64,000 nucleotides of DNA from Paraprevotella xylaniphila YIT 11841 (GTDB taxonomy: Bacteria; Bacteroidota; Bacteroidia; Bacteroidales; Bacteroidaceae). This document shows, one piece after another, positions 39,316-57,012 of the stretch. Each line of letters starts with the position of its first letter. Position 1 is the first letter of the stretch. A program made the position numbers and the translations under genes. The stretch lies in contig NZ_GL883824.1 in assembly GCF_000205165.1 (NCBI RefSeq), positions 1 through 64,000 on the forward strand. Reading direction: 5' to 3'. The notes under the pieces were generated by a model. It did no database searches. It worked only from the letters and a program-made list of their open reading frames with translations, and was not told the DNA's origin.

Positions 39316-39410
39316 CGATTTCTTTTTCAGAATAGGAAAAATTTCAATAAAAAACAGAAACGGAAATCATAGTCCTTATCTTTGGGAATCATCTGCCTTA
39401 GAACGGGAAA

Positions 39411-39463
39411 TCAATCTAAGCCAAACGAAAATTCAATCTAAGCCGAATGATTTTTCATTCTCC
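39411..39463 (-). repeat. Intergenic element, copy B, with a 22-bp tandem unit
   Basis: TCAATCTAAGCC occurs at 39411 and again at 39433, a 22-bp period. The second unit extends to 39463 and matches copy A (1395-1425) at 28 of 31 bases. Located upstream of the ileS promoter. The 311-bp gap between ileS and the SusD gene otherwise holds only that promoter box and the operon terminator. Confidence 0.6.
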
Positions 39464-39514
39464 GCACAAAAAACAAGCATTTATATACATTTGTAATTCA
39501 GCAGGTTATAATAT

Positions 39515-39554
39515 AAAAAAAAAGAGGGCAGGGAATCCCAAACATTCCCTGCCC
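39515..39554 (-). terminator. Terminator of the FAS1/SusCD operon
   Basis: Minus-strand perfect 11-bp stem GGGCAGGGAAT/ATTCCCTGCCC (39544-39554 with 39526-39536), 7-base loop, then a run of T (complement of 39515-39523). It lies 27 bp after the last stop codon. Confidence 0.9.
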
Positions 39555-39580: not shown

Positions 39581-41506
39581 TTACATTCCTATCTGTCCTT
39601 TCCAATTCAGGAACCAGTTGCTCTCTACCATCAACTTGTTGTAAAGCGAACCGTCACGATTCTCTTTGCCTTCGCGCTTGCTGACCGGGTCGGCCACCCA
39701 CGCATTATTACGGTAACGTTTGGCAAAACGGATCAAATCATAAAAACGCTTGCCCTCGAAACAGGATTCCAACGCATTTTCATTGATGATCATGCTGTCC
39801 ACGCGGGCTTGCTCCTCAGCCAGGTTCAGGTAAGCCCAGTCCTTGCGGCTCTGCCCCACGTAACCGTTGACACGGTTACCGTCCTTGTCCAAAGAATCCA
39901 CCATCGGATAAGCATAATCCGGATCCAACTCGGCATAACCGCAACCACGTGAATGTACGCCCACCGTATTGAAAGCTTCGGTAACACTACCGCCTTCCTC
40001 ACCGAGACGTCCGTTACGCGTCTTGAACACATTGAAATAATTGTTGGCCGAATTCAACTCGTTGAGGAATGCCAAATCGGCATCGTTGCAATATACGGAC
40101 ACACTGTCATCTACCACGTCCTTACTGATTCCCGTGGCCAAAATGGCGTATGCCATGCGCGGGAACCCGCCATTGTTAAGGGCTTCGGCCAAACGTAACC
40201 AAACATCGCATTCACGGTAAATTCCGATGTGGCGTTGGTTTACCTTGTAGATATTCTGCCTCGTAAACTTATTGGCAGTTCCTCCCGTCGTAATGTTAAA
40301 GGTTCTCGTCCTCCATTGGGCACCCAAGCGCAAATCTCCCTCCAACACCGGTGACTCCTCAATCTCATCCGGAATCACATCTATCGGACGGTTTTCCTTG
40401 TCCAAGAAAGAATAAGACTGCGACCGGCTGATTTCCTGCATGTGCAAGGACGGCGTGATGCAGAAGTTCGTAGAAGTAATGAGGGCACCGTCTTCTGTGG
40501 TCGATGAATTGTACAAAGTCTGCACTTCGCTATAATATCCCTGACTGGCAGCCGAGTCCATCGGGATAAAGGTGAAGGTTTCCGTTCCATATATGGAAGG
40601 ACTCTGTCCCGGAAGTGAATAAGAAAGCCCATAAGAAGTCCCCGTGCTTGAGTAAAACTCTGACCACCAAGCCAACTTTCTATTGGGATAGTAAACAGAC
40701 TTCGAGAACCCGTCCCCAACGTTACGTTTGTCCATAATCCAACGGAAATAGCATTTGGCAGCCTCGCGGTAATATGCACGTCCGGCATCCGTCCCCTGGC
40801 AAGAAGCTTTCCAGAGATACAAATCGCCCAACACCATGTCTACCGGGAAATAGCAGTTGGCCATTAAAAGATTACCCACCTTATGCAAAACGGGCCATTC
40901 CGTGTTGCTGTATGGTTTCAGGTCGTTGATGAAATAATCGCAAATGGCTTCAATATCCTTACGGTCTTTCACGTCAAGGCTGACATCATTGGCATCCTGC
41001 TCCGTCAGCAACGGATTCGTGTAGAAAGGCACCTTGCCATAGTTCAACGCCAGTTGCAGGTAGGCCCATGCGCGGATAGACCTTACCTGTGCCATTTCCT
41101 TGGCAAAAATCTGGTTGCCGCGATTGTCGTATGCGTTAGTATCAGCGTATGCAAGATAATAATTACAGTTGTTAATCACTGCATAATAATCACGCGGGCT
41201 ATTATATTTGTTCTCGTCCGTCACTTCGAAGTTGGCCAACGCACGCAAATCGGCACTGGCCTGAGTGGTCAAAGTCACCAAGTCGCCCCGCACCTCGCCC
41301 AACAGGTTGGTTCGGTCACCGATGGCCTGCAGCTTATAGATAATACCTATCAGGGAAGTGGCAGTATCGGCCGGTGTCTTTAAATGGCTGCCGTTTTCGT
41401 ATATCACATAATCCGAAGTCGGCTCCAGCATGTCTTCGCAGGATCCTAAGAATCCTGCTCCGACAGCCGCCAACGCAATCTGAAAAATATAAGATTTGAG
41501 TTTCAT
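39581..41506 (-). CDS. SusD/RagB-family surface lipoprotein (second pair)
   Basis: 641 residues. Lipoprotein signal ending LGSC (Cys23) followed by acidic EDMLE, consistent with surface display. The SusD N-terminal helical/TPR part is recognisable (AYLQLALNYGKVPFYTNPL, about 155-175), as is the C-terminal hallmark ALESCFEGKRFYDLIRFAKRY (about 590-610). SusD proteins cap the partner SusC channel and bind its cargo. It starts 11 bp after its SusC gene and is last in the operon. The ligand is unknown; it is somewhat longer than typical SusD proteins. Confidence 0.88.
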   Translation of the reverse strand: MKLKSYIFQIALAAVGAGFLGSCEDMLEPTSDYVIYENGSHLKTPADTATSLIGIIYKLQAIGDRTNLLGEVRGDLVTLTTQASADLRALANFEVTDENKYNSPRDYYAVINNCNYYLAYADTNAYDNRGNQIFAKEMAQVRSIRAWAYLQLALNYGKVPFYTNPLLTEQDANDVSLDVKDRKDIEAICDYFINDLKPYSNTEWPVLHKVGNLLMANCYFPVDMVLGDLYLWKASCQGTDAGRAYYREAAKCYFRWIMDKRNVGDGFSKSVYYPNRKLAWWSEFYSSTGTSYGLSYSLPGQSPSIYGTETFTFIPMDSAASQGYYSEVQTLYNSSTTEDGALITSTNFCITPSLHMQEISRSQSYSFLDKENRPIDVIPDEIEESPVLEGDLRLGAQWRTRTFNITTGGTANKFTRQNIYKVNQRHIGIYRECDVWLRLAEALNNGGFPRMAYAILATGISKDVVDDSVSVYCNDADLAFLNELNSANNYFNVFKTRNGRLGEEGGSVTEAFNTVGVHSRGCGYAELDPDYAYPMVDSLDKDGNRVNGYVGQSRKDWAYLNLAEEQARVDSMIINENALESCFEGKRFYDLIRFAKRYRNNAWVADPVSKREGKENRDGSLYNKLMVESNWFLNWKGQIGM

Positions 41507-41517
41507 AAGAGACTGAA

Positions 41518-44500
41518 TTAAAGGTTGATTTTAATACCGAGCATAAAGTTACGGCTGTTAGCCAACAGGCCGCGGTCTATGCCTTGTTCCAAAACACTGT
41601 TGCTCATGGAGAAGTCCGGATCGGCTCCTAAGTACTTAGACACGGTAAAGACGTTGTTTGCCTGTCCCCAGAACGTCAGGCCGTGGATGAAAGTATTGTT
41701 AATCGGAAGCTCGTAGCTCAACGTGATAGATTTCAAACGCAAGTAACTGGCATCCTCAATCCAACGGTCGCTGAAACGGGCATTGCCCATCGGGTCTTCC
41801 CACGTCACCGTCGGCATGTCGGTCACCTGTCCTTCATAGCTCCAACGGTTCGCCATCGCTACCGACTGGTTCATGAAGCGGTTTCCGCCTTCCAACTGCG
41901 AACGCAAGTAGTTATAGGCATCGTTGCCCAAGCTGTAATTGAAGTTCACATCCAAACGGATACGCTTGTAACTCAAAGAGGTGAAGATGTTACCGTAAAT
42001 ATCCGGGTTCGGATCTCCGATGACCTGCATATCTGCCTTGTTGATTTCCTTGTCACCGTTATCGGCAAACTTCACGTCGCCGGCCCCGAAGTAATTCTTG
42101 TCGATACCGTTCTCGCCCAAGATATACAATCCGTCGGCCTTGGCCTCTTCCGAAGTGGCATATACGTGCGTACCGGATGCGGTGGCCTCGGTCTTGTAAC
42201 CATAGAACAAATTCACCGGTTGGCCAATCTGCGAACGGATGGTAGCACCGTAGACTTCGGCATCCACATAATCCTGTCCGTCGGGCAAAGCCGTCAGCTT
42301 GTTCTTGTAATGGCCGACACTGGCGCCCAGTTCCCAGTTCCAGTCGCGGGTGGCAATGATATGGCCGTTCACCGTAATATTATAACCCTTGTTCTCCAAA
42401 GAACCACCGTTCACCCAGTTGTTCTCCAAACCGGTAATGAAGTTCAGCTCATGGTAAGTCAACAGGTTGTCTGTCCAACTCTTGAACACGTTTACTTTCA
42501 AGTTCAAACGGTTCTTCAGGAAATTCAACTCCGTACCGAAACTGAAGCGACGAGTGGTTTCCCACTGTACTTCCGTATTGCCCAAATTGCCCAAAACCAA
42601 ACCATTGGCCTTATTCTGGAACAAGATACTCTTGAAATAAGTACGGGTGGCATCAAAGTCGATACCGTCGTTACCGCTCACATCGTACCCCATCGTGAAT
42701 TTGGCATAGTCTATTCCCGGCACATCGAACCAACTTTCATTGGACAACACCCAACCGGCCTGGATTCCGGGGAAAACGCCCCAACGCACACCGGCCAGTT
42801 TGAACCCTTCCTTCGCTTCCTTACCGAATCGTGAAGAACTTTCGATGGCCAAGTTACCTTCCACGAAATAACGCTTCCTGTAATCATAACGGGCCTGTCC
42901 GTACCAACTCATCGAAGTCCACTCGTTGGTGCTACCGGTAGTCGTCTTGTTTTTAGTATCGTTGATAAACGGTGTCTTATCACTACCGGTATCATACCCC
43001 AACTGCGAATCCACCTTATAACGGTCGTTCATATAACGGAATCCTCCCAAAAGATCGATGCTGTGTGCCCCGTACTGGTTGCCCCACTCTATTTTCGTAT
43101 CGCTCGTGATAGAGTTCTGCGAAGAGTAAAGCGAACGGATTTCATTCTCTACCGTAAGGCCGATAGAAGACACATAGTAGTCAGGCACACCGTTGATGGG
43201 CACGTAATACTTGTCGTTCGTATTCGTCAACGTATAGCTGAACAAAGAACTGATAGACAAATGCTTGTTAAACTGCCATTTCGGCGTAATGGCGAGGTTC
43301 AAATAAGAGTTCTCAAAGTAATTCTTGTTCTGGGCCGTACCGTATTCATTGATAGAAGCAGGGTTGGCCAAACGGTAGTTCACATTACCAATCGAAGCCA
43401 AAGCCTGGTTCAGATAGTCCTCGTCGTTATTGTCAAATGCCACGTCGGAAATCTTACCGTTGGAATAAGCATACGGGCTCAGCATCGGGCTTTTCACCAA
43501 ACCGAGATAATTGACGGAAGTCACCGTTCCTTCATCATACCCTTCCGGCGCACCCTGGTCTTTCAAGTTACGCGTCACGTTGCTATAAGAAGCATCGAAG
43601 CGGATGAACAGGTGCTTGAACATGTTGATGTCCGTATTGAAACGGATATTCAAACGGTTCACGTCATTGTCTTCCAACACGCTCTGCGCACCATTGTACC
43701 CCATCGCAAGAAAATAGCTGGCTACTTCATCACCACCTTGCACCGTAATGCCATAATTCTGCGAAAAAGCCTCACGGTAGATGACATCGTCCCAATCCGT
43801 ATTGTTATTATACTTGTTATAGTAGTAATTATTCGGATCGGAAGTCAGGAACTGGAATTCCGACAAGTTCGTACCCGTTGTCTTCAACAAGTCCGAAGCG
43901 TATGTCTTGAACTGCGAACCGCTCATCACTGGAAGCGATTTAGGCAATAAGGTTATACCTGCCGACACGGTGGCATCGATTTTCGTTGCCAGACTCGTGT
44001 TGCGCTTCGTCTCGATGAGAATCACGCCATTGGCACCTTTGGCTCCATAAATGGACGTACCGTTGGCCATCACCTTCACGCTCTTGATTTCATTGACGTT
44101 GAAGGAGGTCAGGATATCATTGTAGAAACCGTCATGGATCATCGTGCGGTCATATTGTTGGTCCACGATAACCCCGTCAATCACGACCAACGGCTGGCCG
44201 TTGCTGTGCAAGGAGTTGATACCGTTCATCATCATGAAATTTCCGATACCGGGCGTACCTCCACGGGAAATCGTACGGACATTGGCTCCCAACCGGTCAC
44301 CGATTTCGGACGTGATATTCAATGACGGACTATAATCGAACTTGTCTGCCACCACCGTGTTCAGGATATTGTCATCCGCACCGTATGCCGAACGCATGAC
44401 ACTCGAATACATCGTCACGTCACGCAACTTACCGGATTGGTTAATACCCACACGAACCGTATTATAATCCGGCGACGTGATTTTCAAGGCCGTGGCGTAC

Positions 44501-44769
44501 TCCGGCACGTCGAGCTTATACGTACCGTCCTCTTCGGTCAACGTACTGTAACCGTCGTAACCGCTCACGCTGACCAACGCCCCACCCAAGGGCGCGCCGG
44601 ATGTCACCGCGAACACTCGTCCGCTGACCGGACGTGTCTTTACATTTTTCTTGATCGGACTGGCAGGTCTGGCCGCAGTCACGGTGTCGGTAGCAGCCTC
44701 TTCCTGGGCATAGCCCCCCAAAGTGCCTGCCATCAACAATGCTAAACAATAGAATCTATATCTTTTCAT
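41518..44769 (-). CDS. SusC/RagA-family TonB-dependent outer-membrane channel (second pair)
   Basis: 1083 residues. Signal peptide ending GGYA/QE, a carboxypeptidase-regulatory-like domain (about 47-120: SGRVFAVTSGAPLGGALVSV), a plug (about 135-260: PLVVIDGVIVDQQ, YGAKGANGVILIETKR) and a 22-strand barrel to the terminal LGIKINL. No STN domain, so no signalling to an anti-sigma factor is expected. The plug is divergent, with KVMANGTSIYG in place of the usual VLKDA.ATAIYG. With the SusD downstream it should import a ligand bound at the surface. It starts 27 bp after a FAS1 gene. Confidence 0.9.
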   Translation of the reverse strand: MKRYRFYCLALLMAGTLGGYAQEEAATDTVTAARPASPIKKNVKTRPVSGRVFAVTSGAPLGGALVSVSGYDGYSTLTEEDGTYKLDVPEYATALKITSPDYNTVRVGINQSGKLRDVTMYSSVMRSAYGADDNILNTVVADKFDYSPSLNITSEIGDRLGANVRTISRGGTPGIGNFMMMNGINSLHSNGQPLVVIDGVIVDQQYDRTMIHDGFYNDILTSFNVNEIKSVKVMANGTSIYGAKGANGVILIETKRNTSLATKIDATVSAGITLLPKSLPVMSGSQFKTYASDLLKTTGTNLSEFQFLTSDPNNYYYNKYNNNTDWDDVIYREAFSQNYGITVQGGDEVASYFLAMGYNGAQSVLEDNDVNRLNIRFNTDINMFKHLFIRFDASYSNVTRNLKDQGAPEGYDEGTVTSVNYLGLVKSPMLSPYAYSNGKISDVAFDNNDEDYLNQALASIGNVNYRLANPASINEYGTAQNKNYFENSYLNLAITPKWQFNKHLSISSLFSYTLTNTNDKYYVPINGVPDYYVSSIGLTVENEIRSLYSSQNSITSDTKIEWGNQYGAHSIDLLGGFRYMNDRYKVDSQLGYDTGSDKTPFINDTKNKTTTGSTNEWTSMSWYGQARYDYRKRYFVEGNLAIESSSRFGKEAKEGFKLAGVRWGVFPGIQAGWVLSNESWFDVPGIDYAKFTMGYDVSGNDGIDFDATRTYFKSILFQNKANGLVLGNLGNTEVQWETTRRFSFGTELNFLKNRLNLKVNVFKSWTDNLLTYHELNFITGLENNWVNGGSLENKGYNITVNGHIIATRDWNWELGASVGHYKNKLTALPDGQDYVDAEVYGATIRSQIGQPVNLFYGYKTEATASGTHVYATSEEAKADGLYILGENGIDKNYFGAGDVKFADNGDKEINKADMQVIGDPNPDIYGNIFTSLSYKRIRLDVNFNYSLGNDAYNYLRSQLEGGNRFMNQSVAMANRWSYEGQVTDMPTVTWEDPMGNARFSDRWIEDASYLRLKSITLSYELPINNTFIHGLTFWGQANNVFTVSKYLGADPDFSMSNSVLEQGIDRGLLANSRNFMLGIKINL

Positions 44770-44796
44770 TACTCATGCTCTAATATTGTTCTACAA

Positions 44797-46497
44797 TCAA
44801 TTTTCATCGCTTCCGGAACCGGATGTAGGACGTGGCTCGAAAATCACACAGTCTATCGCCAAATCCTTACTGTAACCGTCCGGTACCGTACGTCCCTTGA
44901 TAGATTGTATGGTCAGCAACACCCTGGGATCTTCCTCTCCAAAGTTAGAAACCGGGAATTCAAAGCCTTCCGTTACCGTTATGGTGTCCATCCTTGTGGC
45001 ATCGACATCCACGTCCGTGCACAAAGTCCGCGCATTGCTTCCTTCAATCATGTCACCGGTCCTCGACGAATAATATCTGATTTTAGCCGTAAACTGACGC
45101 TTCAACTGTGCGTCTTCCTTGGCCAAAGAGTCTCCGGCCAAAGGAGAGGCAAACACGACCTTGATGTCATACGGGCAATTGGAAAGCGTGCTAGGAATCT
45201 TAAAGGTAATTTCCGGTTGGTTGGTACGTCCCGAACGGGAATCCTTTACCACTAAGTAACCACCCGTTGACACCCTGAAATTCTCATTGGTTGCCTCTAC
45301 CGCATTTACCTGGATTGCAGTAGAGTCGCCCGAAAGCGTCACTGTCGAATAATTATTAGCATATTCCGCTTCAACCTGAATCGGACGCATATAAATCAGC
45401 TTGGTTGGAGGTATGCGCCAATCCGTAGCCTTATACAACCGGCCGTTGCTACAATCCTGAGGAGTCAGGCCATGCAGCAAACCACCTGCCTGCATCGGCC
45501 ACTCGAACTTGGAGAAATCCGGATAATACGACATATAGGTCGTGGCAACGATGGAATCCGGATTTGCTTCGTTGAAAGGCAATTCCTGCTCCCGTACATT
45601 GAAGAACGAGCTGTAAATCAACATATATTGGGAATAGAGGTTCTGCAAAGAATCGCCGTCTTCACCTAAACTCTTGTGAAATTCGAAATAGGAACGATAC
45701 TGATCGATATGCTCTCTCCAAACCTTATTGGTAGGAGCTACGAACCAATATAAACTATCCTCCGAATCAATTTGTCCAAAATTATCAAATATCCTGTTAT
45801 AATTGTACATCACGGAATCCAGATATACAGTCTCACCGTCCACGATACCGCCCGGCACACTGGCCTCTTCGTCAAGTTCTATACGGTTCCATGAAAGGAA
45901 GAAATTGGACACGCTGTCCAAACCTTGGTCTCCCTCCCTATCCATACGAATACGCTCCCAAATGTTGGGAAAGAAAGTCGCGGCTCCGTCCACCTTATAA
46001 AGCATACCATTGGAAGAGGGCACACCATTGCCCACCATATTCACTTCGCCATTGAGCATGGAACTGGTCAAGTTCAGACGTTTGCCATTCAACATCTTGA
46101 CAGTCTCGTCCTCCGTCAACGATGAAACTTGTTGATTGTACATGGCGATATGATTCCTGATAAACTGGTTCAAGGTAGCATTATCGTCATCAATGATTCC
46201 CAGGCTTTTCTCTCTCTTATAGGTTTCAATCCACTCCTGAGCTTCCTCCTCCGTGATTTCGGGAGCCCAAACGGTAAACACCTGATTGGAGTTCAACATG
46301 TCCTTATAGCCACAAGAATCAAGCACCCGTACGAAAGGACGAATGCTCTCGTCGAGTAGCATGTTTTCCCACAGGGTCGCACCGGGCACCGAACCATTCA
46401 CACTGTAATGGTCGTCCCATGTATCCGTACAGGACACACCGGTGGTTGCGGCGATTAACGCCACAACTCCTGTCTGCATATAATATTTCAATTTCAT
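44797..46497 (-). CDS. FAS1-domain lipoprotein with C-terminal beta domain
   Basis: 566 residues. Lipoprotein signal ending GVSC (Cys23), followed by TDTWDD. Two degenerate fasciclin-like modules are seen from their strand/box pattern: NQVFTVWAPEITEEEAQEW (about 70-90) with NHIAMYNQ, and DSLYWFVAPTNKVWREHI (about 245-262). The last 190 residues are beta-rich (IQVEAEYANNYSTVTLSG to IDCVIFEP), like a carbohydrate-binding or DUF5108-like sandwich. FAS1 domains mediate adhesion in many organisms. Placed between the broken FAS1 gene and the second SusC gene. Confidence 0.75.
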   Translation of the reverse strand: MKLKYYMQTGVVALIAATTGVSCTDTWDDHYSVNGSVPGATLWENMLLDESIRPFVRVLDSCGYKDMLNSNQVFTVWAPEITEEEAQEWIETYKREKSLGIIDDDNATLNQFIRNHIAMYNQQVSSLTEDETVKMLNGKRLNLTSSMLNGEVNMVGNGVPSSNGMLYKVDGAATFFPNIWERIRMDREGDQGLDSVSNFFLSWNRIELDEEASVPGGIVDGETVYLDSVMYNYNRIFDNFGQIDSEDSLYWFVAPTNKVWREHIDQYRSYFEFHKSLGEDGDSLQNLYSQYMLIYSSFFNVREQELPFNEANPDSIVATTYMSYYPDFSKFEWPMQAGGLLHGLTPQDCSNGRLYKATDWRIPPTKLIYMRPIQVEAEYANNYSTVTLSGDSTAIQVNAVEATNENFRVSTGGYLVVKDSRSGRTNQPEITFKIPSTLSNCPYDIKVVFASPLAGDSLAKEDAQLKRQFTAKIRYYSSRTGDMIEGSNARTLCTDVDVDATRMDTITVTEGFEFPVSNFGEEDPRVLLTIQSIKGRTVPDGYSKDLAIDCVIFEPRPTSGSGSDEN

Positions 46498-46523
46498 TTT
46501 TCTTTAGTGTTTTAATGTGAATA

Positions 46524-48731
46524 TTAGTAAAGATCCTCACCGATACCTCCGGCACCGCAAATGCTTATGGGCACCAATTCCATGTAATCAAGAATGAAAC
46601 ATCCTCTGTTCCCTTGCGTGAATACGGAACGAATACGGATCTTATGGTCTGTATGGGGTTTTATCTCTACATCGCAAATCTTACGACGGAAAGTATAGGC
46701 ATTATTGTACATCATTGTACAACTATTCGGGCTGTATCTCGGAGCATCCGTTCCGTCATTCCCCGTAAAGCAACTCTTCGGCCCGCTATAATAACCGTTA
46801 TTCTTCATCGTACGTTCGTTCTCTTCCAATTGCTCAGTAGTGTAAACACCAGAAGTACTTTCTTCCGAATTCCGGAAACCGGTAGTCCCATTATACAACC
46901 CACCGACTCATGCATCGTCTGCACGATAGCGCATATCGATAGGAATCCCCTGCGGAATGCCGTCCACATAAATTTGGGCAATACCACGATCCAACATACC
47001 CGGATATCCCAAACGAAGTTCATACGTGCCGGGAGGGACATTAGGCAACGGGAAAGTCACGTCGTAACTCGTTCCCAAGATGTTAATCTCATCCCCGCCC
47101 CAGTTCCACCAAGGCGTTTTAGGACGCTGCACGAAGAAAATGGTATTCTCGCTAAATGTACAATTTTTCATATAGCCGGGTGGTATATAATAATTGAACC
47201 CACCGTTTTCGCCACCGTTCTCGTCATTGTCGTGGCCACCGTAAGCCTGTGTCGGATTTCCACACAAACGAATGTCATTATTGGTCAATTCCGGCCATAT
47301 TGTATAAAAATCCATACGCATCCTCGTATTCATCACGTTATTGCGCATCGTTTGGTCATAAGCCACAATATCGTCCAAATAGAAGTAAGACACGTTCAAC
47401 GAGAAGTTCTCTGCGCCTGGCTGAGTCAAATAAGCACCCCGCACCCTGTCATAAGAATTATACCTCGTAGCCGTACTATGGTTGATATAGTAACTGCCCG
47501 GATGCTCTACCTGCTTGTCGACAGTGGCATATACCCTCTCCAACTTTATCATGGAATAATCCAACAAGGTGGAAATCCACTCCGTAGGGTTGGCGTATGC
47601 CGTATTGGTACCCCAACAGTTTATCAACTTGGCCGTACTGGCAAACAAACGGTCCAAAATGTGATACGACAAGAACATGTTCAACGGATTGTAACGACTG
47701 GTCAAGGACTCCTTGTTCCAATACCGTTCCTTATACGTACGCCTTTCCGAATCGTCAGGATCCACATCATTCAAACCGAATATGTTGGCAGCCGCATTAT
47801 CTTTATATTTCTCCACGGCCAAATCGTACAACGCATCGACCTTCTGGTCCAAAGTCATATTGGCGTTGAAGCGATTGCTATATTTTTCATACAGCACCTC
47901 ATCGGGAACAATAAGCAACGTGAAACCTTGGTAACGGTGATCCGGACGCTTGGCATGGTAGGCATAGCCTTTATCGTTTTCGTTGAAAATACCTCCGGAA
48001 TAAATTTCCTTCTTGAATTCAGGGTAATTCTCTTTCCAGATTTCATAACTGTCATCACGATAGTGAACCAACGAGTCCAACAATCCCGTACGCTTGAGCG
48101 CTTCGTAATAAATCGTGAATTCGTCATGATTTTCATCCAACAGACTGGATCCCAAACTGGTATTCGGTATCAATACGCGATCCACCGGATGAACCACTCC
48201 GTTGTCTACAGAATCATTCTTCAACTCATTGATAATGGCCGAACGACGGTTGATGACACTTAACGTCATCCCATTCGCGTCCACTGTATCCCCGTCCGTC
48301 ACGATAATCAAAGGCAAGTCAAGTTCATTATTGATTTGCTCCGTTTCGGCAAAGTTATAAGTGTACTTGATGCTATTATCCACCAAACAGGCTTTCACCA
48401 ACGTATCGCACAATTCGACAGGCATGTCCTCGACAGAAGCGTAGCCGCGTTCCTTCAAAAAGGCTTCCACTCCGGAATTGATAGCCGGATAAAACGTTCG
48501 GGAACCACGGCTCGACAGGAAATCCATCTCGCCGGCACGCTCGACAATACGCTTGAACAGGCTGAAATCTTCACGATTCTTCAAATAATCACTCATCATC
48601 TCCCCCGTAAAAGTATAGTAGCTGTCGGCTGCCAAGTCATCATTGCAACTGGTGAATAGAATCATCTGCACCGTCAAGAATAAAACGGTGCAAATGGATG
48701 TCAATATTTTCAATAATTGCTTCATAATCAT
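46524..48731 (-). pseudogene. FAS1-domain lipoprotein interrupted by an in-frame TGA
   Basis: Coding starts at 48731 or 48725 (MKQLLKILTS), with a lipoprotein signal ending FTSC then NDD. Two FAS1-like modules (GSRTFYPAINSGVEAFL; YQGFTLLIVPDEVLYEKY) and a C-terminal beta domain follow. The frame stops at TGA (46910-46908) after YRADDA, but the same frame continues as VGGLYNGTTGF and on for 127 codons to ICGAGGIGEDLY, including FILDYMELVP, the usual last strand of such domains. The full frame would be 735 codons. A single CGA-to-TGA change would explain it. The stub of 607 residues may still be made. Its start overlaps the SusD stop (TAATG). Confidence 0.75.
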
Positions 48732-50449
48732 TATTTACCTGTTGATTCAAAAGAGTCACCGGCCTCCGGATAAGCAGGATTTTGCTTCAAATTATGGTTA
48801 ACCTGCAATTCGTCGTAATTGTAAGGCCAATACATAGCCATTATGTTCTTCAGCTTACCGGTGGCAGTCGCCGCATTCTCCGTAAACTTGCTTTGCACAG
48901 CTTCCACCAAATATTCCGTATTGCCGTCACGACGACTGTGGCGCACCAAATCAAACCAACGTTTGCCCTCGAACAAGAACTCACGTCTACGCTCGTCGAA
49001 CACCAAATCCATCAATTGCGATTTCGTAGAATAATTGCTGTAAACCAAAGAGGAAGAAGTATTCGGTGCCGAACGGTCGGCAACCGCCTTGATCAAATCG
49101 AAAGCAGCCTGTCCCAAGCTGTCATTTCGCTCAGATTCTTCTTCTCCCATCATGCAAATCAAAGCTTCCGCCTTAATCAGCATCATGTCGCTCACCCGGT
49201 AGAACACCCAGTTGGCATCATTTTTCGTCATACGTTCCACATAAGCCAAAGAACTACCGGAAGAAAGACCCGGATTAATGCTCGTATAAGCATATTTGGC
49301 AATGGTCACGATTTCCGGATTCGACTCGTTGTCCACATGGATGGACTCCTTGATACGCGTGTCTTTGTTCGACAAGAATATCTGCGGAGAAGATAACTCT
49401 TTCCAAAGGTCTTCTGCCGGTGCGAACTGCCCATAGTTCGGGTCTTTATCATTAGATTTGAAAAAGCGGTTGAAAAACTCGGCCGGTACATCATTCGCCT
49501 TTGAACCATCCGTCGTACTTTCGGAAAAATCCAACTCAAAAATACTCTCCGGACCACCACCTTCACCGAAGTTATATTCATAAGCCACACCTGCCAACAA
49601 GATGGTATTGTCATTATCCGGAATCAAAGGATAATCACCCACCATATAATAGGAAGAATAATTATTCTTGAAATATTCCGTCTTGTAATCGATTACCATT
49701 TGGGCATATTTCTCCGCATTGGAGTAATCCCCTATCCACAGGTACATATCGGCCAACATGGCGAAAATGGCATTCTGAGTGATACGTCCGTAACTGACAT
49801 CCTTACCGGACTGTTTCGGCCATGCCTTCAACGCATCCGGCCACACAGCCACCAAATCATTAATCAGGTTCCGGACGATGACATCCCCATCCGTAGCCGG
49901 CAGGTTCAGCTCCTGTTCGTCATTGGTAATGGCCTCCGTATAATACGGCACATCCTTAAACGTACGTACCAAATAGAAATAACAAAGCGCACGCAAAGCT
50001 GTTACCTCGGCAATCGTTGCCTGAACGTCGCTCGGCAAATAATTCGGATCTTTTTCTGCCACCTCCGGTGCTTTTTGGATAACCAGATTACAGCGGTCTA
50101 TGACAGAATAGAAACTCGACCAATCGGTATAGGCATTATTCGACAGGATATTTTCCGACAAAATATACCCTTCCGCCGAGGTTGCGCTGAATTTAGGATG
50201 AAACCCCTTGCGCGTGTTGTCCGAACGGCTCTCGCCCCAGATGAACAGGCGGCGGACAAAATCGTCATCCTGCATACGGGTGTAGCAACCTGTCACAATC
50301 TGGTCCACGTCGTTCTTTTCATTCCAGTAATTATCTTCATACACCATGGTCAACGGATAAATATCCAAAAAGTCTCCACAAGATGTCATAGACATTCCGA
50401 CCATGGCCAGAAAAGCTGATTTAAACCATATTTTCTTCATCTTATTCAT
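48731..50449 (-). CDS. SusD/RagB-family surface lipoprotein (first pair)
   Basis: 572 residues. Lipoprotein signal ending MTSC (Cys24), then GDFLDIYP, the classic SusD beginning. The helical core (ALRALCYFYLVRTFKDVPYYTE, about 155-175) and the C-terminal LVFDERRREFLFEGKRWFDLVRHSR (about 490-515) are textbook. It binds the cargo of the SusC encoded 11 bp upstream. An alternative start three codons in (MKKIWFK) is equally possible. The stop codon overlaps the start of the broken FAS1 gene. Confidence 0.92.
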   Translation of the reverse strand: MNKMKKIWFKSAFLAMVGMSMTSCGDFLDIYPLTMVYEDNYWNEKNDVDQIVTGCYTRMQDDDFVRRLFIWGESRSDNTRKGFHPKFSATSAEGYILSENILSNNAYTDWSSFYSVIDRCNLVIQKAPEVAEKDPNYLPSDVQATIAEVTALRALCYFYLVRTFKDVPYYTEAITNDEQELNLPATDGDVIVRNLINDLVAVWPDALKAWPKQSGKDVSYGRITQNAIFAMLADMYLWIGDYSNAEKYAQMVIDYKTEYFKNNYSSYYMVGDYPLIPDNDNTILLAGVAYEYNFGEGGGPESIFELDFSESTTDGSKANDVPAEFFNRFFKSNDKDPNYGQFAPAEDLWKELSSPQIFLSNKDTRIKESIHVDNESNPEIVTIAKYAYTSINPGLSSGSSLAYVERMTKNDANWVFYRVSDMMLIKAEALICMMGEEESERNDSLGQAAFDLIKAVADRSAPNTSSSLVYSNYSTKSQLMDLVFDERRREFLFEGKRWFDLVRHSRRDGNTEYLVEAVQSKFTENAATATGKLKNIMAMYWPYNYDELQVNHNLKQNPAYPEAGDSFESTGK

Positions 50450-50460
50450 AGCATTATCAA

Positions 50461-53400
50461 TTAGAAATCTACTGTGACACCAAAAGTATATGACTTGGCA
50501 CGCGGAGTCTGCGCGTTGTCTTGCGTCACGCTATATCCTCCGTAACCCAACTCCGGATCTACGCCGGAATACTTCGTCAAGCAGAAAAGGTTATTACCAC
50601 TCAAATAGAAACGCAAACCGCTCAAACCGATTTTCTTTACCATCTTCTGCGGCATATTATAAGAAATCTGCAAATAGTTCAGACGCAGGAACGTTCCGTC
50701 TTCCACAAAGCGGTCGCTGATCATCGTATTATAGTTCGCGAAGTTACCGCTTGCGCTCAAAGCACGCGGGATAGAAGTTCTGTCGCCCTCCTTGCGCCAA
50801 CGGTAGTTCACAGCCTGGCTCTGGTTGTTATTGGAACTCATGCTCTCCATGTCCAAGCGGGCAAGGTTCACAATGTCGTAATCCACACGGTAGTTGAACT
50901 GTGCATTCAAAGCCCAGTCGCCATAATTGAACTTAAACCCGAAACCACCGGTCAACTTCGGCAATGAGTTACCCAAGTAAACCAAGTCGAGTTGGTTGAT
51001 GTTACCGTCGTGGTTCACATCTTCATAAATGGCATCTCCACCCTTAAATTCATATCCGGTACCGCCTGAAACATAATTGAACATCATCTGCAACGGGTCA
51101 CCCTTCATGTCACGCACGATTTCTCCGTTCGCATTGTAAACCAAAGGAGCCGTCCATCCCCCATTGTTATTGAAATTGGCGATGAAAGCCTTGGCATCCG
51201 CATCACCGTCGGCCGCCAAGCGTTCCTTCTGCAGATAAGTATCATAATTATACATATAGACACCTTTGCAACGGTAACCGTAAATGGCACCAAAAGGATT
51301 GTCCACCTGTACACGTTGAAGGAGTTTCCGGTTTTCGGCCACCCAGTCACTGTTCAAAGTTTCCAATACACGGGGATCCATGCGGGTTATCTCATTCTTG
51401 TTGTTGGCAAACGTGAAATTCAAGTCCATCCAGAACTTACCCTTCTGAATCAGTTTGTTGGTGTTCAAGTTGATTTCCCAACCTTTATTGTTCATGTCAC
51501 CTACGTTCTGGTAAGGATAATTCGTGAAACCAGAGATACTGGATATCCTCACGTTCTCCATCAACATGTCCTTGGTGGTCTGAGTATACAGGTTAATGTC
51601 AGCCTTGATACGGTCATCCCAAAAACCCAAGTCGAAACCTACGTTCCACGTGTACTTCATTTCCCACTGCAAGGTGTTCAACTTCAAGTTATTCGGAGCC
51701 ATACCGGTAGCACCGAAATAGTTACTGGCGGCACTATATTGGTTGACATACAGATAGTCTTTTTTAGGTTGATTACCAGTCATACCCCATCCCGGACGGA
51801 TAGAAAGCATAGACAACCACTTGCGCGTACCCTCCATCCAAGGCTCATCTATTATGTTCCAACGGCCTGAGAATGCAGGGAAGACACCCCAACGCTTACC
51901 CGGGCCGAACTTGGTTGTACCGTCTACACGGGCTGATACGTCAAAAATGTATCTTTCTTTATAAGCATAGTGGGCAGAGAACGTATAATAAAGACTTCTC
52001 CAACGGTTAAAATTACTGGACATCCCCGGGGTAATACCACCGGCACTCGGAGCCTCTATCCCGTTTGGCAAACCGGCCACCTCCGTCTTTTGGTCACTCG
52101 ACGTACCTGAAACCAACTGGAAACGTCCCATCGTCATAAATGAATGGTCTTCATTCAGGAAATGAGGCACGAAAGTCAACGTATGCGTAGTGGTAAAGGC
52201 CAGACTCTTGGAGCTATAGCTTGTAGCCTTGCTCACTCCGTCGGCATTCCAGTTGTCCGTAGACAATTCACGCGGATAATAGGTGTCTTCGTATGCATTG
52301 AACACATTCATGATTACCTTTCCGTTATAAGTCAAACGGTGCTTGGTTTCATCTATACCCAAGAAGTCATATTGCAACTCCAATTTCGGGTCGATGGCGT
52401 ATGTCGTATAAGAATTCTTGGCATACTTGGCACTCGCAATCGGGTTCACCAACCCACGTTGGTCTTCCAATGCGTCTTTGGCCTTCAACATCTCGTAATA
52501 ACGTCCCAAAGAGTTACCTTGCTCATCTTCCTCGAATATAGCCAAGTTCGGCATCTTCTTATAAGCAATGTTCAACAAGTCATTAGAGTTTTTCTGGTTG
52601 TCCGTATAAGTCAAAGCAAAGTCACTGATAATCTTGATACGGTCACTCACGTAATAATCCAACATCATACGGGTCGTAAAACGATCCAACTTCTGCTCGA
52701 TGATAGAACCCGTTTCATGGTCGTAACCACCGGATATACGGAAAGTCGCCTTCTCACCACCACCGGTTATGGAAACGAAATGATTCTGACGCAAACCGAC
52801 TTGCTTCACTTCTTTCACCCAATCCGTGTTGTTGTTGAACATCTGCCATTCAGAGAACACACGCTTATCCGTGATATAATTAAGCTCAGGGATATTAGCT
52901 GCCTCATCGCTCAAACGAGGATTGAAATATGCTTCTTTCAATAACATGGTATACTGGTCACCCGTCAACAAATCCACCCCATCCGGCTGATATGTACCCG
53001 TCAAACGAAGAGAATAAGTCAATTTCGGCTTTCCGCGTTTACCACGTTTCGTCTTAATTTCAATCACACCGTTTGCACCTTGAGAACCCCAGATAGCCGT
53101 AGCAGCAGCATCCTTTAAGACGCTGATACTCTCGATGTCTTCAGGATTGATGTTCAATAATTGCGCGAACTGCTCATCATTGGCGTTTTGTACATCAAAG
53201 TTACTCTGATCCACGTTCCAAACGTCGCCGTTCACCACAATCAAAGGCTCGTTACTCGTCAACGTACTGATGGTAGACGCACCACGCAAACGCATCGTCG
53301 TACCGGCACCCAAGTTACCGGAGTTCATCACGATATCCAAACCTGCGATACGACCTTGCAAAGCTTCATCTACGGAAGTCAGACCCAAACCCTCGAATTC

Positions 53401-53823
53401 CTTGGCATTGATAGTCTGCGAAGCGAAAGACACCTCACGCTCGGGAATGGCCAAACCGGAAGACTCCACACGTTTCTTCGCTTTTATTTCCACTGTTTTC
53501 AATACCATGGCATCCTCCAACGTCACATGGTAAACCCTCTTATTAATAGGAAGCACCTGTGTCTTCAAACCCACATAACTAATTTTCAATTTATTATTAG
53601 GGTTCTTGATTTTCAGGGTAAAGTTACCGTTAAAGTCTGTCACTGTGGCAGATATGTTACGGTTAGAAGCGTCCATTTCCACAATAGCAGCCCCCACGAC
53701 TGGCCCGAAGGAGTCGGAAATCGTCCCACTCACACTCGTTATTCCCTGAGCATTCACTACCGTGGCAATCGTCAGGCAGCAAATTAAGAAATAATATTTT
53801 AATTGTTTCATTGTCTTTATCAT
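50461..53823 (-). CDS. SusC/RagA-family TonB-dependent outer-membrane channel (first pair)
   Basis: 1120 residues. Signal peptide ending VVNA/QG, a CarboxypepD_reg-like domain (about 28-105: VSGTISDSFGPVVGAAIV), a plug with EPLIVVNGDVW and SISVLKDAAATAIWGSQGANGVIEIKTKRG (about 195-265), and a barrel ending in YTFGVTVDF. No STN domain. The ATG lies 5 bp after the stop of the large FAS1 gene, in a sequence (ATTAACCTTAATG) that recurs at other starts of this operon; an ATG four codons later gives the better signal peptide. TonB-energised importer of unknown ligand. Confidence 0.93.
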   Translation of the reverse strand: MIKTMKQLKYYFLICCLTIATVVNAQGITSVSGTISDSFGPVVGAAIVEMDASNRNISATVTDFNGNFTLKIKNPNNKLKISYVGLKTQVLPINKRVYHVTLEDAMVLKTVEIKAKKRVESSGLAIPEREVSFASQTINAKEFEGLGLTSVDEALQGRIAGLDIVMNSGNLGAGTTMRLRGASTISTLTSNEPLIVVNGDVWNVDQSNFDVQNANDEQFAQLLNINPEDIESISVLKDAAATAIWGSQGANGVIEIKTKRGKRGKPKLTYSLRLTGTYQPDGVDLLTGDQYTMLLKEAYFNPRLSDEAANIPELNYITDKRVFSEWQMFNNNTDWVKEVKQVGLRQNHFVSITGGGEKATFRISGGYDHETGSIIEQKLDRFTTRMMLDYYVSDRIKIISDFALTYTDNQKNSNDLLNIAYKKMPNLAIFEEDEQGNSLGRYYEMLKAKDALEDQRGLVNPIASAKYAKNSYTTYAIDPKLELQYDFLGIDETKHRLTYNGKVIMNVFNAYEDTYYPRELSTDNWNADGVSKATSYSSKSLAFTTTHTLTFVPHFLNEDHSFMTMGRFQLVSGTSSDQKTEVAGLPNGIEAPSAGGITPGMSSNFNRWRSLYYTFSAHYAYKERYIFDVSARVDGTTKFGPGKRWGVFPAFSGRWNIIDEPWMEGTRKWLSMLSIRPGWGMTGNQPKKDYLYVNQYSAASNYFGATGMAPNNLKLNTLQWEMKYTWNVGFDLGFWDDRIKADINLYTQTTKDMLMENVRISSISGFTNYPYQNVGDMNNKGWEINLNTNKLIQKGKFWMDLNFTFANNKNEITRMDPRVLETLNSDWVAENRKLLQRVQVDNPFGAIYGYRCKGVYMYNYDTYLQKERLAADGDADAKAFIANFNNNGGWTAPLVYNANGEIVRDMKGDPLQMMFNYVSGGTGYEFKGGDAIYEDVNHDGNINQLDLVYLGNSLPKLTGGFGFKFNYGDWALNAQFNYRVDYDIVNLARLDMESMSSNNNQSQAVNYRWRKEGDRTSIPRALSASGNFANYNTMISDRFVEDGTFLRLNYLQISYNMPQKMVKKIGLSGLRFYLSGNNLFCLTKYSGVDPELGYGGYSVTQDNAQTPRAKSYTFGVTVDF

Positions 53824-53828
53824 TAAGG

Positions 53829-56672
53829 TTAATTACCTGAAATCATATTGTAAGCATTAGACAATTCTTCTGTATAAAGCAACGGTTTGTCTATCAAATG
53901 TACAACAGCCGTAGAAGAGTTGAAGATACGGGTTGCCGATTCAATATCCGTACATGCAATAGGACCACTCGAAGAACCGTCACTTGAACTTACTCCGGAA
54001 CGGAAGCGGTACTCACGTGCAAAATAATTGCCTTCCAAAACCTTCCGGGGAGCTTCCCCTTCAATTTCCATCTTATTGGCATCATTGCAAGTGATGACTA
54101 TACTTCCCGAACCGGCTTGGCCGCTATTCGACACAGTAAGCGTGGCAAAACGGCTTCCTCCCATATAAGAAGTCTCGTAAGTACCCGATGAGGCCGGAGC
54201 TGTCAGATAAATCGAGCTATTCTGAATATGATAACGTATAAAGTTGTTAATCAATGTATTCATGCTATCAATCTGAACCTCCAATCGCTCAGCCTCCTGC
54301 GGATTACTGTTCTCGATTTCATCCAACTTGTCTTCCAACTCAATCACGTCTCTCCAATCCGGAAGCAAGTTATGCTCATACATTTTCTCTATCTCTGCTG
54401 TAGGCGGAGCATACACTGTATAATTATAGTTCTCCATGACCGAGAGGGTCAAACCATTGGAAATGGTCTTGGCTACACCTGTAGAAGAAGACCCGCTCGT
54501 AGTAATGTTATAGAACCGAGATACTAACGTGCTATTTTCCACCATATTAGCAAATTCGCTATAACGTTCATCCTTTGTAGCCAACTCCTTTAATAAAACA
54601 GGAACGGATTTTGAAGCAGACATCATAGGCTCCATGTCAACGATAAAGGTTTCTCCATTACCATCGGGATTTGATCCCATATTATAATAACCTTCCACCT
54701 CACGGACTTTCAGTTCATAAGGGCTATTACTACTATTCTGGTCGGCTAGTTCCTTACGATAAGGAGTGGTAATACGGATGTTTGCCCCCGTACCTTCAAG
54801 TATGACCGGACAACCTCCCTTTGTAACCCATACGCTCTTACCCGTTGAAGTTGTGGCAGACTTATCCTGTACGATGATGGAATTCTCCAAGATATCTTTC
54901 AGACGATTCGTTACGTAATCAGATTCGGAACTACCGTTTTTCCAAGGGTTAGTGATTTCTGCACCTCGTGTCAACGTACCGTCTGCATTCTTCGTTGCAT
55001 TATAACGTTTACATTTGATACGGCTACCAATCAATGAAGGACTGTAATCATAATAAAACTCCGTAATGGTAGGTTGGTTCTTGTGATAATCTACCGGATC
55101 CACATAGTTTTTCAACGCTTCATCGGTGGGAAGAATGAACAAGAACATGCTTTCCATCGAATTCAGGTAAGCCTGATAGTCCAATTCATTGATGATAAAA
55201 CGCATGATATCCGTTCTGGTATTACGGTCGTTATCATTCAAAGATGCGGGGAAAGCCACAGACTGGTATTCCGGAATATTATACACCTCATTAGACTTGT
55301 AGACCACACCGTTGTTGGCCATAAGGCAGGAACCGATACCCGTCTGTCCGCCCGGTTCACCCACAGAAAGTCCCATTTCCAATTGGGCCGTATTCATCAC
55401 CGAACTGAACTTGCTAGGCACTGTAGCCACCAGAGAATACTTCATGAAGTTGTCCAACATATTCACGATGATGTGGTTCGGGATGCTGTCTACATATTTA
55501 TAACGGTCAATCAAAGCGGCACCACCACCGGACTGGAAGTAACGCTCGAAAGCGGCATCCGTAGGAGCGACAATGACTGCCATGTCTTCGCTCATAGAAG
55601 CATTGGAAGAACCGTTCTTATACTGGTTCCATCCCGGATCGTAAGACAAGACATTGGCTGCATCATAATCCACATTCTTATAAGTCAGCAAAGCATTGTT
55701 TCCGCCCGCTACTCCCAAATCAAAACCGTTATTCAAATAACGCCACACAAATGCCGAATCCACACCGACTGTATTTGACAATCCTTCATTATATACCGGT
55801 ACGGCAAAACGATTCAACATCTTACTGAATGTCGAAAGTTCTCCGTCGTTATGAATAGCTTCGGCCATATTGGTCAAAGGATTCATTACGTTTTCCAGCA
55901 CCTGAATGTAACCGTTCTGGCACGTAATATCCCTCTCCACCAGACGCTGCCCGTTGATATACGACTCTGAAGTGTTGTCGCAAGCCCCATTGGTCAAGAA
56001 CTTCAAGTCATCGTTCGTAATCGACTTATTCGACATATAAGCCGAAAGGAAATGCACCATCGGGGATGTCGTATTATCCCTGAACACGGTCATACTTTCT
56101 GCGCCCGCATCCGAATACTTGGAACGGTAATACTGCCAATATTCGTTGTCCGGCATATCCGAAGCGCGCAACTGCGGAATCGTATCATACAGGTTCAACG
56201 AAGAAAAACGGCGCATCACAGTCCCGGGTGCAGGGTCGTTGCCAGGCGTGCTCGACATCAATTCTATCAGATAAGCACTGTTTATCATCGAAGAATTAAA
56301 CAATAACTTTTTCTGTGAAGGTGTCAAATCACTATAAGACTTGGCCCCCCACACATTGTTCTGAAAGAATCGGGTAAAAGCATCGTCATTTGCAACGAAT
56401 AACGTCTTACTACCGGTCAAACGTAAAGTTCTGGCATACTCTGTCTCGCCGTTTGCATCCACGGTCGAAACATCCTTGTCATTGATAAGTTCCAACATCG
56501 TTTTATAATTCCCACGCTTCTCCAACTCTTCGTAGATGCTGCTACCCAACCACGAAGGCATTCCGGTCAAAAGCTCGTCCTCACAAGAGACTAACAAACC
56601 ACCGGCGAAGAACAGCGCACATGCAGAATAGGTAAAACGACCCATTTTACTTTTAATGTTACTGCCTTTCAT
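53829..56672 (-). CDS. Large multi-FAS1 (fasciclin) surface lipoprotein
   Basis: 947 residues. Lipoprotein signal ending LVSC (Cys30), then EDELL, consistent with surface export. Four fasciclin-like modules can be picked out by their core strand: KTLFVANDDAFTRFF (about 90), MAVIVAPTDAAFERYF (about 370), MFLFILPTDEALKNY (about 510) and YTVYAPPTAEIEKMYE (about 755). A coiled segment (ELEDKLDEIENSNPQEAERLEVQID) lies in the last. It resembles an extended adhesive stalk. First large gene of the operon, directly before the SusC gene (5-bp gap), so it probably works with that transporter at the surface. Ligand unknown. Confidence 0.83.
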   Translation of the reverse strand: MKGSNIKSKMGRFTYSACALFFAGGLLVSCEDELLTGMPSWLGSSIYEELEKRGNYKTMLELINDKDVSTVDANGETEYARTLRLTGSKTLFVANDDAFTRFFQNNVWGAKSYSDLTPSQKKLLFNSSMINSAYLIELMSSTPGNDPAPGTVMRRFSSLNLYDTIPQLRASDMPDNEYWQYYRSKYSDAGAESMTVFRDNTTSPMVHFLSAYMSNKSITNDDLKFLTNGACDNTSESYINGQRLVERDITCQNGYIQVLENVMNPLTNMAEAIHNDGELSTFSKMLNRFAVPVYNEGLSNTVGVDSAFVWRYLNNGFDLGVAGGNNALLTYKNVDYDAANVLSYDPGWNQYKNGSSNASMSEDMAVIVAPTDAAFERYFQSGGGAALIDRYKYVDSIPNHIIVNMLDNFMKYSLVATVPSKFSSVMNTAQLEMGLSVGEPGGQTGIGSCLMANNGVVYKSNEVYNIPEYQSVAFPASLNDNDRNTRTDIMRFIINELDYQAYLNSMESMFLFILPTDEALKNYVDPVDYHKNQPTITEFYYDYSPSLIGSRIKCKRYNATKNADGTLTRGAEITNPWKNGSSESDYVTNRLKDILENSIIVQDKSATTSTGKSVWVTKGGCPVILEGTGANIRITTPYRKELADQNSSNSPYELKVREVEGYYNMGSNPDGNGETFIVDMEPMMSASKSVPVLLKELATKDERYSEFANMVENSTLVSRFYNITTSGSSSTGVAKTISNGLTLSVMENYNYTVYAPPTAEIEKMYEHNLLPDWRDVIELEDKLDEIENSNPQEAERLEVQIDSMNTLINNFIRYHIQNSSIYLTAPASSGTYETSYMGGSRFATLTVSNSGQAGSGSIVITCNDANKMEIEGEAPRKVLEGNYFAREYRFRSGVSSSDGSSSGPIACTDIESATRIFNSSTAVVHLIDKPLLYTEELSNAYNMISGN

Positions 56673-56674
56673 AT

Positions 56675-56892
56675 TTCCATTAGGTTAATATTTTAATAGA
56701 TTATTATTCACTCAATATATAAACATCGTTATGACGCCATACACCGAACCTGTCACCGGCTCTTGGCCGGGAATTGACAAGCAGTGTGCCCACACAACAT
56801 TTTTGGCACTTTTTCACTGGGAGCCCTAACTCCTCTAAAGTGCTGAATCCGTGTCCTCTAATATAGCCTACTTTACATTCCATTAGGTTAAT
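56675..56892 (-). repeat. 15-bp direct repeats flanking the small Cys-rich gene
   Basis: TTCCATTAGGTTAAT (plus strand) occurs at 56675-56689 and 56878-56892, 203 bp apart. Each overlaps a start region: the ATG of the 59-residue gene, and a vestigial ATG GAA ATA TGA just before the FAS1 start. This suggests duplication or insertion of a 203-bp unit. Confidence 0.6.
56704..56883 (-). CDS. Small Cys-rich protein at the head of the FAS1/SusCD operon
   Basis: 59 residues, starting MECKVGYIRGHGFSTLEELG, then LPVKKCQKCCVGTLLV and ending VWRHNDVYILSE. It has four Cys (3, 26, 29, 30), with a C-x-x-C-C cluster. There is no signal peptide or membrane segment, so it is inferred cytosolic. The frame runs from an ATG 50 nt after a TATCTTTG promoter box to a TAA 31 bp before the FAS1 start, so it is the first gene of the transcript. 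I know no family for it. Possible roles: a small zinc or redox regulator, or a leader peptide. Composition is protein-like but its shortness keeps this uncertain. Confidence 0.55.
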   Translation of the reverse strand: MECKVGYIRGHGFSTLEELGLPVKKCQKCCVGTLLVNSRPRAGDRFGVWRHNDVYILSE

Positions 56893-56940
56893 TATTCAAT
56901 ATTTTTTAATCAGGTGTACAAAACGCCCTCATTTGGGTAT

Positions 56941-56948
56941 CAAAGATA
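56941..56948 (-). promoter_or_regulatory. -7 box of the FAS1/SusCD operon
   Basis: TATCTTTG on the minus strand, 57 bp before the ATG of the small gene. No TTTG at the -33 position, so an activator may be needed. The 340-bp gap before the FAS1 gene holds this box, the small gene and the 15-bp repeats. Confidence 0.5.
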
Positions 56949-57012
56949 TGACATTTTTGTAAAAACACATAATAAAATCTAAACAAATATCGAAAACATG
57001 TTTAAAAACATA

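Follow-up and report, generated by a model that had tools for sequence, protein, structure and literature searches.

What would two SusC/SusD importers take up in an operon that also encodes three fasciclin-domain (FAS1) lipoproteins and neither an enzyme nor a regulator? Such a block lies, entirely on the minus strand, in a 64,000-nt stretch of the Paraprevotella xylaniphila YIT 11841 genome (hereafter the window; contig C20 of genome G000, which is 3.79 Mb and 100% complete). FAS1 domains are commonly interpreted as modules for adhesion, and the partners of SusCD pairs as immunoglobulin (Ig)-type binding proteins. A first-pass annotation had described the block as a departure from polysaccharide loci, in which the FAS1 proteins hold a ligand such as a host glycoprotein or another cell for the two importers. 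Here we find that the FAS1-SusCD link is real and conserved, and that its context points to glycan capture and import, not to host adhesion. We consider it probable that this operon encodes the outer-membrane half of a conserved kind of system for glycan uptake, a dual SusCD importer in which FAS1 lipoproteins replace the surface glycan-binding proteins and whose own enzymes are absent.

The FAS1-SusCD gene order is conserved

The annotated outline of the block holds: open reading frames (ORFs), Pfam and TIGR04056 together confirm three FAS1 lipoproteins and two SusC/SusD pairs without enzyme or regulator, and the proposed short gaps between the genes are there as well (5-27 bp, with one 1-bp overlap), a spacing that suggests a single transcript. 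In order of transcription the genes are FASa, SusC1, SusD1, FASb, FASc, SusC2 and SusD2, together referred to as the heptad (Table 1).

Relatives of FASa were found in 37 of 101 near genomes, 22 of 393 genomes from the order and 8 of 395 from the phylum, the own genome being counted each time and at most two candidates per genome being scored in the order and phylum searches; the phylum-level matches all fall within one class. We labelled 52 loci, all chosen by their FASa match and fetched for part of the hits (7 own, 29 from near genomes and 16 from the order). The complete heptad in window order is present in 35 of the 52, including one locus with SusD1 called in two pieces and one with an extra SusC and SusD in front. 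Among the remaining 17, five are consistent but run off the end of their stretch, six are without FASb, three have FASb moved upstream, and three differ (G027, G167 and G426). More distant loci of the class, taken from other genomes of the phylum sample, show the full order in eight of eight. The search for conserved FAS1-SusCD order that the first-pass annotation had called for therefore comes out in its favour, and the conserved order argues against chance clustering of the heptad genes. Pairwise identities of the seven proteins across loci also correlate (r 0.81-0.96), a range inflated by the common ancestry of the genomes, although the rows also include seven paralogs of one genome; this co-variation is compatible with a utilisome-type complex without proving one.

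Sibling heptads stand among glycan enzymes and regulators

Searches with FASa and SusC1 revealed six further heptads in five regions of the same genome (C87, C32, C13, C65, C33a and C33b), each with all seven gene types, FASb being doubled and moved upstream in C65. By Pfam, C87 adjoins a glycoside hydrolase family 43 (GH43) gene with a carbohydrate-binding module (CBM6), a further GH43, a GH5-GH43 and a hybrid two-component regulator, and C32 adjoins GH10, GH43, GH67, GH115, an esterase and a hybrid regulator; judged by this gene content C87 is of the arabinoxylan type and C32 of the xylan type. The neighbours of C13 are two GH97, a GH28-like protein, an alginate-lyase-family protein, a hybrid regulator and an extracytoplasmic function (ECF) sigma factor, and those of C65 are GH127, GH97, GH30, heparinase-like and alginate-lyase-family proteins, an ECF sigma factor and a propeller/AraC-type regulator. 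C33a and C33b lie in one common region with GH3, GH95, GH2 and a hybrid regulator. Carbohydrate-active enzymes are thus found beside all six siblings, and regulators in their regions.

Outside the genus, 15 of about 40 loci were tested with Pfam, picked partly for informative-looking neighbours, and beside 11 of these lies a family of glycoside hydrolases, lyases or esterases (G046, G049, G170, G348, G389, G281, G202b, G454, G480, G597 and G698b). They include GH115 and a rhamnogalacturonate lyase in G454, GH88 in G698b, an arabinofuranosidase in G049 and GDSL only in G597, while G167 and G224 have a two-component regulator only. Farther out, more SusCD genes and hydrolase-like genes are recognisable by eye in G468 and G788. 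With six enzyme-rich siblings that have regulators, and with these 11 loci, the idea that the block departs from polysaccharide loci as a kind is not supported. These loci speak only indirectly to the other refuting condition named in the first-pass annotation, an ordinary utilization locus with a CAZyme or peptidase elsewhere under common control. An enzyme-less block may occur in another family too, because G649 is flanked on both sides, by eye, by leucine-synthesis-like and other unrelated genes.

Large secreted repeat proteins of about 1200-1290 amino acids (aa), with segments in common, adjoin several heptads (L041:2355-5987, L042:1898-5479, L031:1510-5187, L054:8212-12078 and L067:15169-18966). 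At the cut-off used, Pfam finds nothing in four of the five and DUF5013 in one; the tails of some resemble, by eye, a type IX secretion signal. Related proteins stand in tandem around the two C33 heptads (L056:7471-12312, L057:3191-5122 and L035:3-1541), and the two members of this tandem family that were scanned both have FG-GAP repeats.

The window copy is an enzyme-less ortholog at a conserved site

The same locus is found in P. clara YIT 11840, where FASa is 95% identical (P. clara is labelled G013 or L046; L047 is G010, and L048 is G006). A major facilitator superfamily (MFS) gene and/or panB lies upstream of the ortholog in P. clara, G001, G002, G017, G010, G005, G006, G016 and G011, and ileS lies downstream in G013, G001, G002, G005, G006 and G010, a 1265-aa secreted repeat protein with no Pfam match standing between SusD2 and ileS in G006. 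Other downstream contexts are housekeeping-like by eye in G016 and G011 and ABC-transporter-like in G008, and in G017 the stretch ends at the contig end. In the window itself Pfam identifies ileS, lspA, a DUF4296 protein, an MFS protein, panB, a HAD hydrolase and an AMP-binding enzyme in the flanks. No hydrolase-like gene was recognised beside the Paraprevotella orthologs, the Pfam scan covering the window flanks and the G006 repeat protein only. The best FASa matches of G003, G004, G009 and G014 reach only 34-35%, so the ortholog is not genus-wide. By this synteny the window copy belongs to an enzyme-less ortholog group that has stayed at one site in most of the Paraprevotella examined.

In a SusC1 tree built by a quick method (51 rows, two of them from one genome and at zero distance), the 12 Paraprevotella rows of the window group, together with G046, are sister to C87, G049 and G350 (16 rows, 99). 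A SusC2 tree built by a careful method (45 rows) places the window group with C87 and G350 (100/100), and this set joins the C32 group (97/92). In G170, a member of the C32 group, GH115 lies about 5 kb and GH10 about 8 kb past the block. A FASa match also lies 3-5 kb from GH10 in six of the nine GH10-bearing genomes among the 11 Paraprevotella searched (G000, G013, G002, G005, G006 and G010; not in G008, G011 and G017). A xylan- or arabinoxylan-like substrate of the window importer is a tentative suggestion from these placements, to which we would give somewhat less than an even chance.

Comparison with P. clara shows that the window copy is under purifying selection in the five genes covered, with ratios of nonsynonymous to synonymous substitution rates (dN/dS) of 0.078 for FASa, 0.035 for SusC1, 0.094 for SusD1 and 0.094 for FASc; the fifth gene is FASb, and SusC2 and SusD2 are not among the five. 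FASb had been called broken, and one in-frame TGA does end the window protein at 607 aa, with another 127 codons readable beyond it before the frame closes. In P. clara the ortholog is intact, and intact paralogs also exist. Because dN/dS is 0.050 before the stop and still 0.068 past it, the stop is either recent or a sequencing error.

The proteins resemble glycan importers with FAS1 partners

Both SusCs exceed the TIGR04056 cut-off of 368 bits and both SusDs the PF07980 cut-off of 23.1 bits (scores in Table 1), and, as the first-pass annotation had stated, neither SusC has an STN domain by Pfam. Among solved structures the SusC of the dextran utilisome (8aa4) is the best match of SusC1 and of SusC2, and for SusC1 RagA is clearly more distant than the dextran and levan SusCs. 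Against PF02469 (cut-off 22 bits), FASa scores 39.9 bits and FASc 29 bits, whereas window FASb, at 16.4 bits, falls below; P. clara FASb is unmatched at E 0.01, but 29 of 30 aligned members of the FASb family match at that level. Profile comparison bears out the four FAS1 domains proposed for FASa, the fourth segment being weak (34%). The FASb and FASc family profiles match periostin and TGFBIp, both FAS1 proteins, and these Protein Data Bank (PDB) matches indicate the FAS1 fold only; FASb also has a weak match to a chain named MiXBM (E 0.005 and 0.09). Acidic residues after the lipoprotein cysteine are a surface-export signal, and by eye Cys-X-Asp follows the signal peptide in each of the five lipoproteins of the block, a lipobox being seen in the three FAS1 proteins.

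SusC/SusD pairs are 'pedal-bin' importers: SusDs act as lids, and TonB drives import through SusC. The FAS1 lipoproteins, probably displayed at the cell surface, would capture a plant-cell-wall oligo- or polysaccharide there and hand it to the SusD lids, and import through SusC1 and SusC2 would be powered by TonB. Because the window copy stands at a conserved site without enzymes of its own, the oligosaccharides would most likely be freed by enzymes encoded elsewhere, either in the organism's own xylan/arabinoxylan loci or by neighbours, and the operon may be regulated in trans or held at a basal level. That the FAS1 proteins hold a ligand for the two importers, as first proposed, is still the natural reading; we saw no indication that this ligand is a host glycoprotein or another cell.

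Alternative readings of the locus

If the operon imported peptides or glycopeptides like RagAB it would have no need of glycoside hydrolases, and several observations that weigh against a glycan importer fit such a system. Pfam finds no carbohydrate-active enzyme in the window operon or the scanned flanks, and no local regulator either (hybrid two-component system, ECF sigma/anti-sigma or SusR), so that of the features of a polysaccharide utilization locus the window copy has the SusC/SusD pair, twice over, and neither of the other two. G001 and G016 keep the ortholog with no match to GH10 or GH115, for which reason xylan is not secure as the substrate; the second-best structural match of SusC2 is tied between the levan SusC (5e-34) and RagA (1e-33); and a C10 peptidase lies near one FASb copy outside the heptads. 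The glycan reading is further weakened by the SusC1 tree, in which the window group, the C32 group and C13 form an unresolved fork in a 27-row set (support 81), by G698a (no family) and G468 (ROK kinase), which have neither enzyme nor regulator in the scanned part, by the absence of any carbohydrate-binding family from FASb and FASc in Pfam, by poor AlphaFold models from five-row alignments (mean predicted local distance difference test score, pLDDT, of 45 for FASc and 39 for P. clara FASb), and by the choice of loci through FASa hits. Against peptide import, both SusCs are clearly closer to the dextran SusC than to RagA, the siblings stand with glycan enzymes, and no peptidase is seen beside the orthologs, of which some flanks were scanned with Pfam. 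We regard a peptide importer as unlikely.

An equally unlikely reading takes the FAS1 lipoproteins as adhesins for host matrix, mucin or other cells, with the SusCD pairs feeding on the material held. FAS1 domains mediate adhesion in animals, the FASb and FASc profiles match periostin and TGFBIp, and the locus is without an enzyme; these matches, however, reveal the fold alone, and the sibling heptads stand with plant-glycan enzymes. A review (PMC6032426) lists host interaction for some bacterial FAS1 proteins and also warns that an adhesion role may mislead for bacteria. Since the siblings combine glycan enzymes with regulators, we favour glycan uptake over adhesion. The missing enzymes and the TGA in FASb could also mark a decaying relic, its enzymes lost and its genes now going. 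Yet dN/dS is 0.03-0.09 in the five genes and low even past the TGA, other Paraprevotella have enzyme-less orthologs with an intact FASb, and the stop itself is recent or a sequencing error, which makes decay the least probable of these readings and a very improbable one.

Solo FASb paralogs

Six intact window-type FASb paralogs occur outside heptads in G000, with 65-72% identity to P. clara FASb (39% for C87 FASb by comparison). Three of them stand in tandem by GH31; a further copy has a hybrid regulator with GH2 on one side and a C10 peptidase on the other. Elsewhere, G013 has three full and two cut window-type copies and G008 has five, and G001, G002, G005, G006, G010 and G017 have a single copy above 50%. 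As silent cassettes for window FASb the solo genes were rejected: no mosaic was seen, block identities being 0.53-0.88 apart from short end blocks. A promoter-like box was sought at four of the six solos (five if a box 70 bp upstream is not demanded), and TAnnTTTG lies within 75 bp at three, C7b, C7c and C49.

One could imagine that, class-wide, the three FAS1 lipoproteins join the two different SusCD pairs in a single mixed complex of two importers that serves branched plant glycans and in which FAS1 modules do the capturing and docking. Because solo FASb genes occur at other sites, some beside enzymes, the enzyme-less Paraprevotella copy could further be a shared hub importer on which solo FASb paralogs, capturing other glycans, dock. 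We hold this extended model to be doubtful, and its hub part is speculation.

Promoter, leader and terminator

Both the promoter box at the start of the block and the terminator at its end, as annotated, are present by sequence (Table 1), the box TATCTTTG being named after what we take to be the Bacteroidales -7 consensus. TAnnTTTG is kept in eight of 10 aligned relative rows, two of which (L048 and G006) are one genome. A leader motif (TTAACCTAATG) is present twice before FASa, 203 bp apart in a repeat search, and is retained by most orthologs, persisting where the first ATG has been lost; only G016 and G011, the most divergent pair of rows, fail to conserve motif and box, and the box is missing from both.

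The small Cys-rich gene counted by the first-pass annotation as an operon member starts at the first motif copy and has no Pfam match. ORFs from the same motif encode 59 aa in P. clara, 51 aa in G001 and 46 aa in G006/L048, with 3, 2 and 2 cysteines respectively and only a short stretch in common, and no comparable ORF is found in L047, G002, G005, G017, G016 or G011. We therefore reject it as a conserved component and see at most a weakly conserved leader peptide. As the ORFs share little while motif and box are conserved, a Cys-rich protein component is unlikely, and the region may encode a regulatory leader peptide or act as an element for control or the start of translation. Promoter inversion was rejected, with no inverted repeat of at least 14 bp at window positions 56600-57100. 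Among 13 upstream regions, AACCTAA occurs before window FASa (twice) and before one solo FASb. A 22-bp repeat in two tandem copies (82% alike) lies at 39402-39445, just downstream of the terminator.

Table 1. Features of the heptad locus, in window positions, and sites of solo FASb genes, in positions of the labelled loci
Feature	Position	Strand	Description	Basis
FASa	53829..56672	-	947-aa lipoprotein, four FAS1-like segments, one weak	ORF, Pfam, profile comparison
SusC1	50461..53823	-	TonB-dependent importer without STN	TIGR04056, 702 bits
SusD1	48731..50449	-	lipoprotein lid	PF07980, 90.2 bits
FASb	46524..48731	-	FAS1 lipoprotein, in-frame TGA at 46910-46908	intact orthologs and paralogs known
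FASc	44797..46497	-	FAS1 lipoprotein, 566 aa	Pfam, profile comparison
SusC2	41518..44769	-	TonB-dependent importer without STN	TIGR04056, 520 bits
SusD2	39581..41506	-	lipoprotein lid	PF07980, 28.8 bits
-7 promoter box TATCTTTG	56941..56948	-	Bacteroidales-type	sequence
Leader motif copy 1 (TTAACCTAATGGAA)	56878..56910	-	start of leader ORF; repeat D1	
Leader motif copy 2	56675..56707	-	directly 5' of FASa; repeat D1	
Leader ORF (small Cys-rich gene)	56704..56883	-	59 aa, starts at leader motif copy 1	
Hairpin then T-run	39514..39554	-	intrinsic-terminator-like	sequence
MFS transporter	57013..58167	-	upstream neighbour; with panB marks conserved site	
ileS	35847..39269	-	downstream neighbour	
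Solo FASb site	L036:4351-11321			
Solo FASb site	L037:3051-5231			
Solo FASb site	L038:6093-8282			
Solo FASb site	L039:6342-8519			

Comparison with known systems

Xus-type xylan loci likewise have two SusC/SusD pairs in a row, and sibling C32 adjoins GH10, GH67 and GH115; in the window block, FAS1 lipoproteins stand before, between and among the SusCD pairs. RagAB of P. gingivalis is a SusCD-type importer of peptides that is not known to have enzymes or FAS1 partners, and SusC1 is clearly closer to the dextran and levan SusCs than to it. In the levan and dextran utilisomes of B. thetaiotaomicron, as far as the available text of PMC7618045 goes, SusC and SusD are also encoded with extra surface lipoproteins, there one SusCD pair with an Ig-type binding protein and a surface glycosidase; the window block has instead two different SusCD pairs, three FAS1 lipoproteins and no glycosidase. 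A FAS1 domain gene in a SusD-bearing polysaccharide locus is drawn for a cellulose/hemicellulose-like locus of Gramella, known from a label in the Fig. 6 legend of PMC4891872 alone. That label excepted, we found no description of the heptad in the accessible parts of the open-licence literature; in the accessible part of PMC10199937 fasciclin appears in the reference list only. The trypsin-binding system of P. clara was considered and set aside, the proteins that matter there (00502 and 00509) being, by their description in the available text of PMC9477747, not those of the heptad, and the 03048-03053 cluster not being mappable to the locus from that text.

That one conserved FAS1-SusCD heptad occurs across many families within a single class suggests that a kind of importer for plant glycans still largely lacks a name, and that nutrient capture may be the better interpretation where genes next to SusCD are annotated as 'fasciclin domain'. 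Import without local degradation could be tested cleanly on the enzyme-less copy, which also bears on whether gut bacteria keep importers for sugars released by other loci or other species.

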